From NCBI RefSeq assembly GCF_901538265.1, contig NZ_LR593886.1:930001-994000 (forward strand): a DNA stretch of 64,000 nt, in the 5' to 3' direction. This DNA comes from Gemmata massiliana (GTDB lineage Bacteria > Planctomycetota > Planctomycetia > Gemmatales > Gemmataceae). Position numbers and translations under genes: made by a program. How positions within the stretch are numbered: the stretch's first letter is position 1; every line of letters starts with the position of its first letter. The notes under the pieces are model-generated. The model ran no database searches and was not told the origin of the DNA. It worked only from the letters and a program-made list of their open reading frames with translations. This document shows positions 46,911-63,548 of this stretch, piece after piece.

Positions 46911-47047
46911 GTGCTTCCTCCTGCGTCAACTTATTTGAAAGCCTACGCGCCAATCATGACGCACCCGAGTCGGGGTTGCAACGCGACTCCGGTTCCGCGT
47001 AGCATCTAGCGCGAATCAGTTTTTTGCCCCCGCACGGAAGCGGAACC

Positions 47048-47875
47048 GTGGCCGATAAGCTCACGCAACAAATCCTGGACGCTCTCGGGCGCTGCGCCGC
47101 GGAGCCGATCGGCTTACCGCTGTTCGCGGGGAAGACCGAGCCGGGCCTGTTCCCGAACGCTTCCAGTGCCAAACCCGCGGCCCAGAAGTGCCTCGCGGAC
47201 GATCTCGTGCGAATCGTCGGCACCGACGCGAAAAACAAAGCACCACGCGACCTCTACGGCCTGACCGAAAAGGGCTGGGAATTTCTGCTCGCGGCCGTGA
47301 ACCCGAAACAGGTACTCGAAGACTTCGTCCGCGTGCTCGAAGCCCGACAGGGCGAGATCGGCGAACTGCTCTCTACCGCGCGCCGGATGGCGGACAGTTT
47401 GCAGGGGCTGAAAGATGCTGTTGCCCGCGTTCTGCCGAGTGTGACAGCGGCGAAGATCCAAGAACCTAACCCCCCAGCCCCCTTCCCTAAAAAGGAAGGG
47501 GGAGCAGAGCCAGAGCCAAGCGCCCCCTCAGCGCTGGATTTCAGCCCCTCTCCGTTTAGAGGAGGGGTTGGGGAGGGGTTGCTGCCCGAGGCCACCGCCG
47601 TTCTCGAAATTCCCGCCATCCTCGCGCCGGCGGTGCTCGCGTACCTCGCGGATCGTTCCGGCCCCACCGACTGTCCGCTGCCGGAGTTGTTCCGCGCGCT
47701 CGCGCTGACGGACTCGCTCACGATCGGCGCGTTCCACGACTGCTTGCGCCAACTGTGCGCGGACGGGGCGATTTCCCTCCCCGCGTGGACCGGCCCGCTT
47801 TACGCCCTCCCGGAACCGCAATACGCCTTGCTCATCGGTCACGGGATCGCTTACTACGCTTCGCTTCGTTCGTAG
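47048..47875 (+). CDS. Winged-helix/coiled-coil protein upstream of a P-loop ATPase, with an embedded repeat
   Basis: A 275-residue protein. Residues about 1-85 look like a winged helix (LTQQILDALGRCAA, RDLYGLTEKGWEFLLAAVNP). Residues about 85-135 form a coiled coil (EDFVRVLEARQGEIGELLST). Residues about 195-275 may form a second winged helix (ALTDSLTIGAFHDCLRQLCA). Between them, residues about 139-180 are encoded by a two-hairpin interspersed repeat (PFPKKEGG, SPSPFRGGVGEG). GTG 47048 was chosen for homology-like content; the frame reaches 47024. The ATPase gene begins 73 bases downstream on the same strand. A DNA-binding adaptor for that ATPase is inferred. No family was recognised. Confidence 0.65.
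   Translation: MADKLTQQILDALGRCAAEPIGLPLFAGKTEPGLFPNASSAKPAAQKCLADDLVRIVGTDAKNKAPRDLYGLTEKGWEFLLAAVNPKQVLEDFVRVLEARQGEIGELLSTARRMADSLQGLKDAVARVLPSVTAAKIQEPNPPAPFPKKEGGAEPEPSAPSALDFSPSPFRGGVGEGLLPEATAVLEIPAILAPAVLAYLADRSGPTDCPLPELFRALALTDSLTIGAFHDCLRQLCADGAISLPAWTGPLYALPEPQYALLIGHGIAYYASLRS
47463..47580. repeat. Two-hairpin interspersed repeat inserted in frame (copy A)
   Basis: Hairpin 1 has 9-base arms (47478-47486 with 47494-47502, CCCCCTTCC). Hairpin 2 is the CCCCTCTCCGTTTAGAGGAG block at 47545-47564 followed by GGGTTGGGGAGGGG. A variable spacer of about 42 bases lies between. The same element occurs at 61912-62036 in the same orientation and reading frame. Confidence 0.8.
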
Positions 47876-58139: not shown

Positions 58140-58262
58140 AGTGTGTCTCACGGGCGCTGGTCCCACCGCTCCTCGAATGTGAACAGAAATTACTGTCGAA
58201 TTGTTGCCGGGCGAAGTACAGTAGCAAACAAGTTTGTACGCTGATTACGCACCGTGCCTCCA

Positions 58263-59582
58263 ATGACGACACCGCTCATCCCGGAGCCGAGTCGGGCCAC
58301 CGAAATCGCTCGCCTCGAACTCGCCCGCCTCGCGCAGAGCGAACCGCTCGACGCCGTGTTTCGGCGGGCGTGCGAACTGTCCGCGGGGGCGCTTACGGTC
58401 GAGCGCGTCGGGGTGTGGCTGTTCATCGACGACCACACCGCGCTCCGTTGCGCGAATCTGTTCGAGCGGGGCAAGAACGAGCACTCGGCCGGGGCGATCT
58501 TGCGGGTCGAGGACTTCCCCAACTACTTCGCTTCACTCTCAATTCGTAAGGCCGTTCCCGTTGAGGTCGTCGGGAACGAGCCGTGGACGGCCGATCTTGC
58601 CGCAAAATACCTCCAGCCACTCGGTATCGGCTCGATCCTCGATGCCGGCATCTTCTTGGGCGGTGAGCTGACCGGGGTGGTGTGCCACGAGCACGTCGGG
58701 CGCCCGCGCGAGTGGACGACGGAAGCCCGCGACTTCGTGGGCTCGATCAGTGACCTGCTCGCGCTCCGGATTCAGTCGGCCGAGGTGCGCGAACTGCGCG
58801 CGGCGTTCCTGACGCAGGACGAGCGCGCGGCGGCGCAAGACAAGGCCGCGGCTCTGGAGCAACTCGCGGCGGGCGTGGCGCACGACTTCCGCAACCTGTT
58901 GTCGGTGTTTCTCGGGTACGGTGGGCTGCTCAGTCGGCGAAGCGACATTCCACAAGACGCGCGGAAACAGGCGCAAGACATCGTAACGGCCGCGGAACAA
59001 GGAGCCGCACTCGCCAAGGGGCTGATGGACTTCGCGCGCCCGAAGGTCGCACCACCGACCGTGCTCGACCTGAGCCTCGTCACCGCCGAGTTCTTACCCG
59101 TTCTCAAAGCGGCGGTCGGTTCCAGGCACGAGCTGCGGTACTCGCAGCCCGCCGAACTCGGTCAGGTGTTTATTGAAAAGGACCAGTTCACGCGCCTGTT
59201 GTTGAACCTCGCGCTCAACGCGAGCGAGGCCATGCCCGAGGGCGGGACGATCAAGATCCGCCTCGCGCCCGTGAAATTGACCGGGAACCCCAGCTACCTG
59301 GGCCGCTTTGTGCTGCTCGAAGTGTCCGATACCGGGGGCGGCATCGACGACGAGACGCGGCGCCGGATGTTCGAGCCGTTTTTTACCACCAAGAAGCAGG
59401 GGACGGGATTGGGCTTGGCGATCGTGCGCCAGGTCGTGGACCGCGTGGGCGGGCTGATTCGCGTCGAGAGCGTTGCGGGAAAGGGGACCACGTTCCGCGT
59501 ATTCTTCCCGCGCGTGGGGGCGAGCACCGGTGGCACCTCACTGTTCCCCATCTTGCCGAGTTCGGAAGAAGATTTGAAGTGA
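58263..59582 (+). CDS. GAF-domain sensor histidine kinase
   Basis: A 439-residue soluble kinase. Residues about 20-175 form a GAF sensor domain (VERVGVWLFIDD, GIFLGGELTGVVCHEHVG). The phospho-acceptor His207 is in LAAGVAHDFRNLLSVFLGYG, and the ATPase region has the N box (NLALNASEAM), G1 (DTGGGI), F box (FEPFFTTK) and G2 (GTGLGLAI) motifs. It autophosphorylates and passes phosphate to a response regulator, none of which is adjacent. ATG 58263 is used; a GTG three codons upstream at 58254 is an alternative. No transmembrane segment is seen. The kinase core is of the NtrB/FixL-like type. Confidence 0.9.
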   Translation: MTTPLIPEPSRATEIARLELARLAQSEPLDAVFRRACELSAGALTVERVGVWLFIDDHTALRCANLFERGKNEHSAGAILRVEDFPNYFASLSIRKAVPVEVVGNEPWTADLAAKYLQPLGIGSILDAGIFLGGELTGVVCHEHVGRPREWTTEARDFVGSISDLLALRIQSAEVRELRAAFLTQDERAAAQDKAAALEQLAAGVAHDFRNLLSVFLGYGGLLSRRSDIPQDARKQAQDIVTAAEQGAALAKGLMDFARPKVAPPTVLDLSLVTAEFLPVLKAAVGSRHELRYSQPAELGQVFIEKDQFTRLLLNLALNASEAMPEGGTIKIRLAPVKLTGNPSYLGRFVLLEVSDTGGGIDDETRRRMFEPFFTTKKQGTGLGLAIVRQVVDRVGGLIRVESVAGKGTTFRVFFPRVGASTGGTSLFPILPSSEEDLK

Positions 59583-59642: not shown

Positions 59643-60878
59643 TCAGTTCACGCGGCGATCAAAATCCGGGATCTGTGTGAACGCGACCCGCGATGGGGCC
59701 GCGTCCCGCATCCCGAACATCGAGCCTAAGTAGACCACACTCGCGCCGAACTCCGCGTTCACGTCGTCCATCGCGTGCGACAAATCTTCGGCTTGGTGAT
59801 CGTCGTCGAACAGGGACGGCGTCGCGCTCCGGGACGGCACCAGTTCACTCAGCACCATACTCACCTTGAACGGCGTGCGCCCGCGCGGGCGGTGTTCCCA
59901 CATCTTTGCTGCCGCCGCAACGAACGCCTGCGTGTCGCGGCACCGAGGCACGTGCACGCTCTCTTCCCATCGCACCGAATCGCCCCGGTCGGCGCCCAGA
60001 AAGCGCACGCCGACCGATATCGAACCGGCCCAGTAGTTGATCTTCCGCAACCGGGCCGCGGCCTTGTGAACGAGACGCACGAGTACCCCATACGCGCCGG
60101 CGTCGGTGCGTAGCTCCGGGGGAAGAACGTGTGAGTGGCTCACGGTCTGGCGCCGGGTCGGGGTGTCGGCGACTTCCTCACCGCGGAGCAGTCGGTACCA
60201 GCGCTCGCCGTGAACCTTGCTTCCCCACACTTTCGCGAGCGCTTGTGCGGGCGCGGCGCAGAACTGAGCGGCCGTGAAAATGCCGTGCCGCTCCAGCCGC
60301 CGTTCCATGCGCGGCCCAATGCCGGGGAAGTCGTTCAACCGGAGTTTGTGGAGCTTGTGCGGCAGATCCGCGTCCGCGAGGACGGTCAGACCGTCCGGTT
60401 TCTCCATATCGGCCGCGACTTTCGCCAGCAGTGTGTTCGGGCCGGCGCCGATCGAACACGCCATATAGTCGCCCGCGAGGGCGCGAATGGCACTTTTGAT
60501 TTTCTGTGCGAGGATCGCGATTTTTTCCGGCTCGCGCTCGGCACTGGTCAGCCGGCACGACATTTCGTCGATGGATACAACTTTCTCGATCGGAATGACG
60601 CTCCGCACGGCTGCGAGAATGCGGTTGTGCATGGTAACGTAGCGGCGGTGATCCCCGGTTACGAACACGATTTCCGGGCACAATATGCGGGCCTCCCATA
60701 CCGGCGTACCCGTCTTGACGCCGCGCGCTTTTGCTTCGTAACTCGCCGCGATGCACGAGGTCGTTTCGGCCTTCGTGGGGATGACCGCGACCGCGCGGTA
60801 TCGCAGTTTGTGATCGTACTGCTGTTCGACGGACGCGAAGAACGAGTTCATGTCGATGAACAGGTGTCGGAGCGGCAC
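59643..60878 (-). CDS. Y-family DNA polymerase (Pol IV-like)
   Basis: A 411-residue translesion DNA polymerase. Catalytic carboxylates are visible in FIDMNSFFASVEQQ (Asp9) and VSIDEMSC (Asp104, Glu105). The helix-hairpin-helix LNDFPGIGPRMERRLERHGI is in the thumb, and a little-finger domain follows. The segment PTKAETTSCIAASYEAKARG replaces the shorter RGVVLAASYEAR loop of classical Pol IV, so it belongs to a divergent subgroup. It copies past DNA lesions with low fidelity, usually under SOS control. No LexA box could be recognised; a TTCAC-N14-GTGAA inverted sequence is present 24-47 bases upstream of the start. The gene is divergent from the NAD fusion gene. Confidence 0.88.
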   Translation of the reverse strand: MPLRHLFIDMNSFFASVEQQYDHKLRYRAVAVIPTKAETTSCIAASYEAKARGVKTGTPVWEARILCPEIVFVTGDHRRYVTMHNRILAAVRSVIPIEKVVSIDEMSCRLTSAEREPEKIAILAQKIKSAIRALAGDYMACSIGAGPNTLLAKVAADMEKPDGLTVLADADLPHKLHKLRLNDFPGIGPRMERRLERHGIFTAAQFCAAPAQALAKVWGSKVHGERWYRLLRGEEVADTPTRRQTVSHSHVLPPELRTDAGAYGVLVRLVHKAAARLRKINYWAGSISVGVRFLGADRGDSVRWEESVHVPRCRDTQAFVAAAAKMWEHRPRGRTPFKVSMVLSELVPSRSATPSLFDDDHQAEDLSHAMDDVNAEFGASVVYLGSMFGMRDAAPSRVAFTQIPDFDRRVN

Positions 60879-61154
60879 GGTACGCCCTCATGATTCATCC
60901 GTTCACTATGAGCGGATATGGTGAATATAAGTGCGCTATATCTGGCGAAACGCAACCGCACGGCGGGTAAAAATAACAAAAAATCTGTCACCCGACATCG
61001 CAAAAGCGGGCGCGTGGGGTGAGGGAAACTTCGTTTACACTGGTACGCGCTCGTGCAGTGTTGCCTCGGTTTCTTGGTAAGCGGACGAGCAACAACCCTG
61101 CCTTGCGGCCAGTACAATCAACACGTTCCGTTCACGGTCCGCGGATGTCGTTTC

Positions 61155-63548
61155 ATGGCCCACCCCACTCACGCCGAAATACTCGCGCACCTCGCCAACC
61201 TCGCTTCGCCCCCCGGTGGGCTGGGGGCGCTTCATCACTTTGCCGAGCGATTGTGCGTTGTTCAGCAGGCGCTCAAACCGGTTACGACCCCGCGCCGACT
61301 CGTGTTGTTCGCGGCCGACCACGGACCGGACGCGGAAAGTCGGGTCGGGACCACGATCCACCACATCGCGGACGGCGGAGCTGCGACCGCGGTCGTCGCG
61401 AAGTCCACGCACACGGAATTGGTGCTGGTCGATGTCGGTTCGCGGACCGACGCGCTGCCGGAATCGCCGCGCTACCGGAGCCGTAAGGTGCGCCCGGGTT
61501 CGCGCGACTTCACGAAGCAACCGGCGCTCACCGCCGATGAGTTCCGCGCCGCGTTCGTAGTCGGGCAGAAGGAGGCGGAACAGGCGCACGCGGACGGAAT
61601 GAGATTGGTGGCAGTTGATGCGATTGGTGCGGAAAGTGCGCACGTCGCGGGTCGGGTTCGCTCTGTCGACGCGGACCGAACCGACGACCTCATGGGCGCG
61701 TGGGGCGCGGTCGGAGGAGCGGATGTCGCGGCCGTCGCGGGGTTCATTGCGAAGGCCGTTGAACTCGGGTTAACCGTGCTGATTGAGGGCGATGTGGCAC
61801 GGGCGGGGCTGCACGTCGCGGAGCGACTCTATCCCGGCACCGCGGCGAAGGTAATTGCGGGAACAGAACCTACCCCCCCGTCCCTCCTCCCCGAAGGGAA
61901 GGGGGAAACAGAACCTACCCCCCTAACCCCCTTCCCTAAGAAGGAAGGGGGAACAGAACCAAATACAACCAGCGCGAAGCAGTCGGCAACGGTTTTAAGC
62001 CCCTCTCCGTTTAGGGGAGGGGTTGGGGAGGGGTTTCCGACAGGATCTCTCCCCACCGAAGGGCTTTCAGTACTGCTCACGTTTCCGCTCCTCGATGCGG
62101 CGGCTGCCGTCGTGGTGCGCACGGCGCGGCGCGAGGAACCGGAGCGAGACACTCGCGCGAAGCCCGCGCGCAAAGTGGCCGTGTTTACGGGAAGTTTCGA
62201 CCCGCCCACGACCTACCACCGCCGGGTCGCGACGCTCCTGCGCGGGCGCGGGTTCGACGAGGTCGTCGTGCGCCCCACCGGTCCGCGGTGCGACACGCCG
62301 GAAACCGAGCACGCGAAGCCGGTCCACCGTGCGGTAATGGCAGACCTGGCATTTCGCGACCTCCCTGGGGTTACGGTCGACCTGTCCGACCTCGACGACG
62401 CGGTGTTCACCCCGCACTACTCGTTCAACGATCTGCTCGCGGACCGCGGCGAGGTGTGGCACGTGATCCCCGCGGAGTTCGTTGTGGGCGGGCGCGCCGG
62501 GGAATCCGCCATCCACACGAAATGGGAACTGGGGGTGGACGCCTGGACCAGTCACCGGTTCGTCGTGCTGCACTCGCCCGAGTCGCCGCCCGACGCGGCC
62601 GACCTGCCGCCGGTGTGCCGGCTCATCGCGGTCGACGGGCATGTCGCTACAGAAGACATTCGGCTCCGCGTGTTTCAGGGCGGTTCGCCGCGCCCCGACG
62701 TGACCGACGATGTGGAGGAGTACATCCGGCGCTACCGCCTGTTCACCGGTATGTCAGCCCCGCGCGAGACTCGTGTGCGGCTCGGGGCGCCGCGGTTGAA
62801 GATCGTCACGGCCGATAAGAGCGAAAAAGCGCTGCGGGCCGCGGAGCCGTTCCGCAAGCTCGAATCGAGCGACCCGACGCACATTCTCGTGCTCGGGGGC
62901 GACGGCACGATGCTCCAGGCGATCCGCGACTACTGGCGATTGCGGCTCCCGTTCCTGGGGCTGAACGCGGGCACGCTCGGATTCCTGATGAACGAGTCGC
63001 TGCCGCCGGACCCGGACGGCGCCGAGATCGTACTGTACCGGATGCCGATGATCCGCGTGGACGCCGAACTGCCGGACGGCAAGCGCGTGCAGTCGCTCGC
63101 GTTCGCGGACGCCTGGGTGGAACGCGACAGTGGGCAGGCCGCGTGGCTGAAGATCGAAGTGGATGGCAAAACGCAGGTGCCGCGCGTGGTCGGTGACGGG
63201 TTACTCGTGGCGACGCCCGCCGGGTCGAGTGCCTACGCACGGGCGATGGGCGCGACTTCGGTTCCGCTGACCGCACCAGTGTTCACGCTGGCCGGATCGA
63301 ACGTGTTCCGCCCGCGCTTCTGGAAACCGGTCGCGCTCCCGGAAACGACGTCGGTCGGGTTCACGAGCCTAGACCACAACGGCAAGCGCCCGATCCGCGG
63401 GTTCATCGACGGGCACCTGATCGGCGCCGTGAAATCGATGCACGTCCGCGTGAGCACGGTCGCGATGGTCGAACTCGGTTTCACGCCCGAGTTCGACCTC
63501 TCCGCTCGTTTGCTGCGCTCGATGTTCCCGCCCTCGGACACGTTGTGA
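61155..63548 (+). CDS. CobT-like/NadD-like/NAD kinase three-domain fusion
   Basis: A 797-residue protein. Residues about 1-235 and 296-320 resemble nicotinate mononucleotide:dimethylbenzimidazole phosphoribosyltransferase (LANLASPPGGLGALHHFAE, LVLFAADHG, VGGADVAAVAGFIAKA, then TFPLLDAAAAVVV). Residues about 340-530 resemble the NadD nucleotidyltransferase (VAVFTGSFDPPTTYHRR, ending EYIRRYRLF). Residues about 547-797 are an NAD kinase with the GGDGT motif at residues 581-585 and LNAGTLGFL. Together these cover steps from nicotinate mononucleotide to NADP, so a multi-step enzyme of pyridine-nucleotide metabolism is inferred. The NadD nucleotide motif is degenerate (TTYH for T/HxGH, ATEDIR for SST..R) and the CobT catalytic region is disrupted by a repeat, so these two activities are uncertain. 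ATG 61155 was chosen because homology starts there. Confidence 0.82.
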   Translation: MAHPTHAEILAHLANLASPPGGLGALHHFAERLCVVQQALKPVTTPRRLVLFAADHGPDAESRVGTTIHHIADGGAATAVVAKSTHTELVLVDVGSRTDALPESPRYRSRKVRPGSRDFTKQPALTADEFRAAFVVGQKEAEQAHADGMRLVAVDAIGAESAHVAGRVRSVDADRTDDLMGAWGAVGGADVAAVAGFIAKAVELGLTVLIEGDVARAGLHVAERLYPGTAAKVIAGTEPTPPSLLPEGKGETEPTPLTPFPKKEGGTEPNTTSAKQSATVLSPSPFRGGVGEGFPTGSLPTEGLSVLLTFPLLDAAAAVVVRTARREEPERDTRAKPARKVAVFTGSFDPPTTYHRRVATLLRGRGFDEVVVRPTGPRCDTPETEHAKPVHRAVMADLAFRDLPGVTVDLSDLDDAVFTPHYSFNDLLADRGEVWHVIPAEFVVGGRAGESAIHTKWELGVDAWTSHRFVVLHSPESPPDAADLPPVCRLIAVDGHVATEDIRLRVFQGGSPRPDVTDDVEEYIRRYRLFTGMSAPRETRVRLGAPRLKIVTADKSEKALRAAEPFRKLESSDPTHILVLGGDGTMLQAIRDYWRLRLPFLGLNAGTLGFLMNESLPPDPDGAEIVLYRMPMIRVDAELPDGKRVQSLAFADAWVERDSGQAAWLKIEVDGKTQVPRVVGDGLLVATPAGSSAYARAMGATSVPLTAPVFTLAGSNVFRPRFWKPVALPETTSVGFTSLDHNGKRPIRGFIDGHLIGAVKSMHVRVSTVAMVELGFTPEFDLSARLLRSMFPPSDTL
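61870..62036. repeat. Two-hairpin interspersed repeat inserted in frame (copy B, with an extra half-unit)
   Basis: Hairpin 1 has 9-base arms (61927-61935 with 61943-61951, CCCCCTTCC). Hairpin 2 pairs 62000-62008 (CCCCTCTCC) with 62014-62022 with one G-U pair. A related half-unit with CCTCCCC/GGGAAGGGGG lies just before, at 61870-61905. Reading in the host gene frame gives PFPKKEGG and LSPSPFRGGVGEG, identical to copy A apart from flanking residues. Confidence 0.8.

Follow-up and report, generated by a model that had tools for sequence, protein, structure and literature searches.

The only NAD kinase detected in Gemmata massiliana is joined to CobT-like and NadD-like regions that are probably retained pseudo-enzyme domains

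Introduction

Among the protein fusions known around NaMN or NAD chemistry are BluB/CobT2 of Propionibacterium (PMC4657239), the archaeal NADP phosphatase/NAD kinase (NF010678) and NadR, and while the Gemmata protein analysed here shares this theme with them, none of these joins CobT or NadD to NAD kinase (NADK) as it does. In the open-licence literature that we searched there was no description of an NADK-NadD or NADK-CobT fusion, which is weak evidence of absence, and no paper in which 'Gemmata' and 'NAD kinase' occur together. Of the parent enzymes, CobT from Salmonella uses E317 as general base and holds the ribose 2'-OH through E174 (PMC9561151), and depletion of NADK halts the growth of M. 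tuberculosis (PMC10470730). The window (the whole stretch of DNA that was analysed) comprises 64,000 nucleotides of Gemmata massiliana, and a first-pass annotation had read in one of its frames a protein joining CobT-like, NadD-like and NADK domains. How the pool is divided between NAD and NADP is set by NADK, whose control in bacteria without obvious regulators is, in our judgement, poorly known.

Results

The frame (61155..63548, plus strand) runs uninterrupted from an ATG at 61155 to a stop at 63548, has no internal stops and codes for 797 aa plus stop. A longer frame is possible from an upstream GTG at 61053; in the orthologue alignment, however, the Met at 61155 is the start common to ten sequences, which favours 61155. 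The source genome is a single contig (10.1 Mb, 98.9% complete), and the same open frame occurs in nine other Gemmata-group assemblies. Ten sequences - one of which, L059, ends at a contig end - align from the shared Met through NADK, a relative in Gemmata sp. IIL30 has 93% identity over the best segment and flanking genes are common to the window and L003, L004 and L005. Independent orthologues together with conserved synteny rule out an assembly error or a chance frame, and the fusion, for which separate orthologous genes had been named as a possible counter-finding, is real. In the same neighbourhood, a conserved gene on the minus strand (59643-60878) resembles, by eye, a Y-family DNA polymerase (FIDMNSFFASVEQQ), and an ORF at 58254-59582 has a C-terminus that looks histidine-kinase-like, again by eye; the latter is present in the window and L005, and when sought in the otherwise syntenic flanks of L003 and L004 it gave no nucleotide match.

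Profile matches uphold all three family assignments and, with the orthologues, bear out that the three regions are joined in a single frame. In an HMM scan, Pfam DBI_PRT (CobT) matched residues 6-161 (E 4.6e-34) plus a second stretch, TIGR00482 (NadD) matched residues 343-529 over nearly its whole profile (E 2.2e-8; 34 bits against a curated cut-off of 112) and NF003406 (NADK) matched residues 562-791 (E 1.2e-42; 146 bits against an equivalog cut-off of 211); the PF01513 score of the NADK region exceeds its own cut-off. Low CobT and NadD scores already suggested divergence. Profile-profile comparison with canonical relatives, in which the fused CobT matched canonical planctomycete CobT (100%, E 2e-64) and the NadD-like region matched canonical NadD (96.6%, E 6e-10), puts the homology of both regions beyond doubt in our reading. 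A structure model of the full protein, built from four sequences, had a mean pLDDT of 34 and was set aside.

For the distribution of the fusion, 46 chosen genomes of Planctomycetota were surveyed with CobT, NadD, NADK, CobS and CobU models, the genus labels beyond the named records resting on kinship assignment. The three-part form was found only in genus g1 (the Gemmata group), in 14 genomes, a count that takes in two broken-frame genomes and G407 and G411, where a CobT piece lies at a contig end. These two might be taken as counter-examples with a separate cobT, but as the pieces stop at contig ends they are probably assembly splits. Other Gemmataceae do carry cobT as a gene of its own, as the first-pass annotation had allowed, and the fusion in the Gemmata clade is nonetheless real. 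Genus-mates G405, G406, G409 and G413 lack the CobT-like region, and the two-part form (NadD-like plus NADK) is wider in the family and also occurs outside the class, in G081 and G171. In L057, L060 and L068 the two-part ORFs begin with long additional stretches, which were considered as extra domains; judged by eye from their low-complexity sequence, these look like noise read out of frame ahead of the true start.

In a tree of the NadD-like plus NADK regions a single branch (support 92/92, recovered in 94% of bootstrap trees) sets all 13 three-part rows apart, from which we infer one origin of the three-part form. Genus g286 has, as its only NADK, a kinase without the NadD-like region. That this is the ancestral state is countered by the NADK tree, in which g286 is nested inside the two-part forms (98/92), albeit in a tree whose canonical outgroup is very long-branched; g286 is thus better read as having lost the NadD-like region. 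Since g286 lost this region yet keeps its NADK, the region appears to be accessory, and the four genus-mates without a CobT-like region point the same way for that part.

The NADK region (residues 545-792; 62787..63530, plus strand) is the sole NAD kinase detected in the genome. In G000, the genome of the window, PF01513 matches this locus alone, and in the other 13 three-part genomes the fused locus alone; a second NADK, sought with PF20143 in 13 genomes, was not found, although two of the 14 (G404 and G416) are only 65-68% complete and absences there mean little. In Gemmataceae that lack the fusion, a canonical NADK takes its place. In G485, G081 and G171 a fused NadD-like plus NADK protein and a canonical NADK occur side by side, possible intermediates or transfers. 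GGDGT (residues 581-585; 62895..62909, plus strand) is invariant across the fused family, within a GGDGTML motif that is kept here, and near the C-terminus the nucleotide-binding segment DG..TP.GS.AY is likewise kept (DGLLVATPAGSSAYA; family form DGLLVATPxGSSAYA). With the NAD kinases of PRK04761 / NF003406 the Gemmata protein shares both motifs and an end-to-end alignment over the C-terminal 230 residues; it differs from them in scoring 146-150 bits (cut-off 211), in carrying two extra fused domains and in the first residue of the NE/D motif, which reads Ala-Asp in Gemmata in place of the Asn-Asp or Asn-Glu found in deeper relatives (e.g. L061, L067, L116-L118). Judged by these scores, it is a divergent type of NADK with PRK04761 as nearest curated model. 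NADP synthesis is generally required and, this being the sole NADK detected, the fused kinase is expected to be active; hence, the NADP of the cell is almost certainly its product.

The NadD-like region (residues 338-533; 62166..62753, plus strand) spans the full profile at 34-39 bits. Its likeness to NadD (TIGR00482) lies in full-length homology, the FDP, the terminal His of the first motif and a T/S..R motif near the C-terminus, while the fused family differs in lacking two residues of HxGH, its first His and its Gly, in a relaxed glycine loop and in scores of 26-64 bits (cut-off 112). Thus GSFDPPTTYHR (62190..62222, plus strand), the counterpart of the NadD motif G-T-F-D-P-x-H-x-G-H, has Thr for the first His and Tyr for Gly in TGSFDPPTTYH and retains the last His, so that HxGH is not preserved, whereas GGTFDPVHMGH is the sequence in the canonical NadD that this genome also encodes. 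Counterparts in relatives include AGYFDPPTRFH, AAGFDPPTAHH and HAPFDPPTLHH; FDP is constant in the fused family, as is the last His except in L067; neither the first His nor the Gly is retained, nor is the glycine loop. The C-terminal ISxxxxR-type motif reads V-A/P-T-x-D-I-R, with hydroxyl and Arg retained and the first Ser gone. The motif is therefore degenerate, as first proposed, and this holds family-wide. Each of the 14 three-part genomes carries a separate, intact canonical nadD (150 bits or more), so the NadD-like region is unnecessary for NaAD synthesis. A weak third NadD-model match over the first 61 positions (G000:C1:7904951-7905118, L008) is probably another nucleotidyltransferase such as CoaD.

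The CobT-like region comes in pieces. In the N-terminal part (residues 6-166; 61170..61652) ADHG is no longer followed by the base-site loop GVSAWPxx, 7 residues long, and DxxGAES stands where CobT has GEMGIGNTT; a middle part (residues 184-234; 61704..61856) follows the deletion of roughly 45 canonical residues; an in-frame dispersed repeat (residues about 235-299; 61857..62051), missing or shorter in orthologues, separates it from a C-terminal remnant (residues 300-326; 62052..62132; PTEGLSVLLTFPLLDAAAA), all on the plus strand. Of the 70 columns that are invariant among 14 canonical planctomycete CobTs, 27 are kept in the fused CobT (19/33 before the GEMGIGN motif, 2/8 within and 6/29 after it). 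What it shares with CobT (PF02277; also ArsA/ArsB) is the scaffold of the N-terminal half, the DVG, AG and PLLDAAA segments and an acidic residue at the E317 position: E302 lies at the position of E317 in the Salmonella enzyme, where orthologues have E or D. What sets it apart is the loss of the GVSAWP loop and the HxSAEPGH segment, deleted or unrecognisable in ten fused sequences, of about 45 residues after GEMGIGNTT and of that motif itself, which is replaced by DAIGAESA: GNTT is gone and an Asp (D155) aligned with E174 of Salmonella is retained.

Profile models for CobS and CobU found neither in the 14 three-part genomes, and no intact cobT was detected there; all 10 sampled genomes with a canonical cobT have cobS, in nine of them nearby on the same contig. 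Given the lost substrate loops and the absence of cobS and cobU, the CobT-like region would no longer serve cobalamin assembly. Annotation pipelines may assign a cobT to Gemmata, and hence activation of the cobalamin lower ligand, in genomes where nucleotide-loop genes were not detected.

By simple Nei-Gojobori estimates, made without a test on pairs of relatives whose dS reached about 1 at most, dN/dS was 0.01-0.10 in most pairs for the NADK region, 0.07-0.24 for the NadD-like region and 0.12-0.33 for the CobT-like region (whole region or N-terminal part), which evolves faster than the other two and reaches 0.9 in one pair over its short C-terminal stretch. On values of 0.12-0.33 the CobT-like region is, we consider, not freely decaying, and 55 of its columns are invariant in ten sequences. 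In L005, which is strain IIL30, the loss of a single base from a run of G (about 5590) breaks the CobT-like frame, and in G417 (L119) two frame changes do so; these breaks may be sequencing errors or real decay, and if they are real, the CobT-like region would be dispensable.

The first-pass annotation had called the CobT part repeat-broken. The repeat does interrupt it, but six orthologues without the repeat (L043, L044, L045, L046, L048 and L049) have the same CobT losses, so it was not the repeat that broke CobT; from this alignment, the insert is a late, lineage-specific invasion of an already shortened CobT. In G000, G400 and G402, further long ORFs contain copies of this stretch in frame, and another copy lies in the window at 47461-47580, inside ORF 47024-47875. 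The Gemmata repeat (translation TEPTPPSLLPEGKGE..PFPKKEGG..SPSPFRGGVGEG), found in frame within many unrelated long ORFs, resembles protein-coding palindromic elements known elsewhere; in G000:C1 its copies include 4174871-4175119, 8725179-8725535 and 8382358-8382570, among others.

Discussion

To our minds, the protein is on balance probably the cell's NAD kinase with two accreted pseudo-enzyme domains that are kept for binding, most likely of an allosteric kind. The sequences show that a divergent NADK became the sole detectable NADK in much of the Gemmataceae; a NadD-like domain, its active-site motif altered, was joined to its N-terminus in an older step, and the shortened CobT-like domain was added later, in a single step confined to one Gemmata clade. 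The NadD-like domain would no longer adenylate NaMN and the CobT-like domain no longer transfer phosphoribose, and one or both may bind a pyridine nucleotide or a fragment of it (NaMN, NaAD, NAD or the free base) in a way that tunes NADK output to NAD-precursor supply; in part their role may be purely structural (oligomer assembly). While from motifs and gene content we strongly infer NADK activity and the pseudo-enzyme state of the other two regions, the tuning of the kinase by pyridine-nucleotide binding is our best guess among several. Since both N-terminal regions are under purifying selection, they are probably retained pseudo-enzyme domains, either sensing a pyridine nucleotide or holding the kinase together. 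In taking them for regulatory or binding modules rather than enzymes the first-pass annotation seems right, in view of the motif losses and the separate nadD, with binding itself a predicted property. Against a binding or regulatory reading, purifying selection is equally expected of a purely structural domain, and against the main reading as a whole stand the altered NE/D motif and an NADK score below the equivalog cut-off. Residual CobT-like chemistry stays strictly conceivable, as D155 and E/D302, at the positions of E174 and E317, are still acidic.

The main rival is that the two N-terminal domains are purely structural, deciding how the kinase oligomerises, how stable it is or where it is located, and bind no metabolite. 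A CobT scaffold that outlived its substrate loops, the faster evolution of the CobT-like region and a g286 that lost the NadD-like region and kept NADK would all fit, and yet we think it rather unlikely, as both added domains derive from nicotinate-nucleotide enzymes and conservation is strong in the pocket region of the NadD-like domain (FDPPT..HR, T/S-x-x-I-R, W), something for which a mere spacer would have no use. Nor do we put much weight on the CobT-like region being a decaying relic left in an open frame after cobalamin-gene loss, so that only the rest of the protein matters: the loss of most canonical motifs, a dN/dS above that of the other regions, the broken frames in L005 and G417 and the repeat invasion speak for it, but the frame is open in ten genomes over long divergence, with the 55 invariant columns and the dN/dS of 0.12-0.33 given above.

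Comparably doubtful is a bifunctional protein, whose NadD-like domain would still catalyse adenylyl transfer, perhaps with another mononucleotide. In its favour, conservation extends to the last His, to FDP and to the C-terminal (T/S)xxIR motif, dN/dS is 0.07-0.24, and other (T/H)xGH nucleotidyltransferases, CoaD among them, accept Thr at the position of the first His; set against this, the Gly of HxGH has become Tyr, Phe, His or Asn, the GG(S/T)F loop reads TGSF, AGYF, AAGF or HAPF across relatives and every three-part genome has its canonical NadD. Least probable by far is the proposal of the first-pass annotation that the fusion channels pyridine nucleotides through three active enzymes. 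All three parent families do handle NaMN, NaAD or NAD, but CobT draws NaMN away from NAD and so lies off the path from NaMN to NADP, while NadE, which takes NaAD to NAD, is not in the protein. With that link missing from the chain, the CobT residues that bind or act on NaMN lost, cobS and cobU absent and an intact nadD encoded separately in 14 of 14 genomes, channelling is not supported.

Returning to a kinase with two accreted pseudo-enzyme domains, we can tentatively suggest that it might be an allosterically controlled NAD kinase of a previously undescribed kind, with two retired enzymes of NaMN chemistry as stacked metabolite sensors through which NADP synthesis would answer NAD-precursor supply. 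In this family a sole NADK appears to have gained domains in a traceable order and a sister genus to have removed one of them again. Kinase alone, two-part and three-part forms may therefore offer a ready comparison set for how pseudo-enzyme domains alter a kinase.
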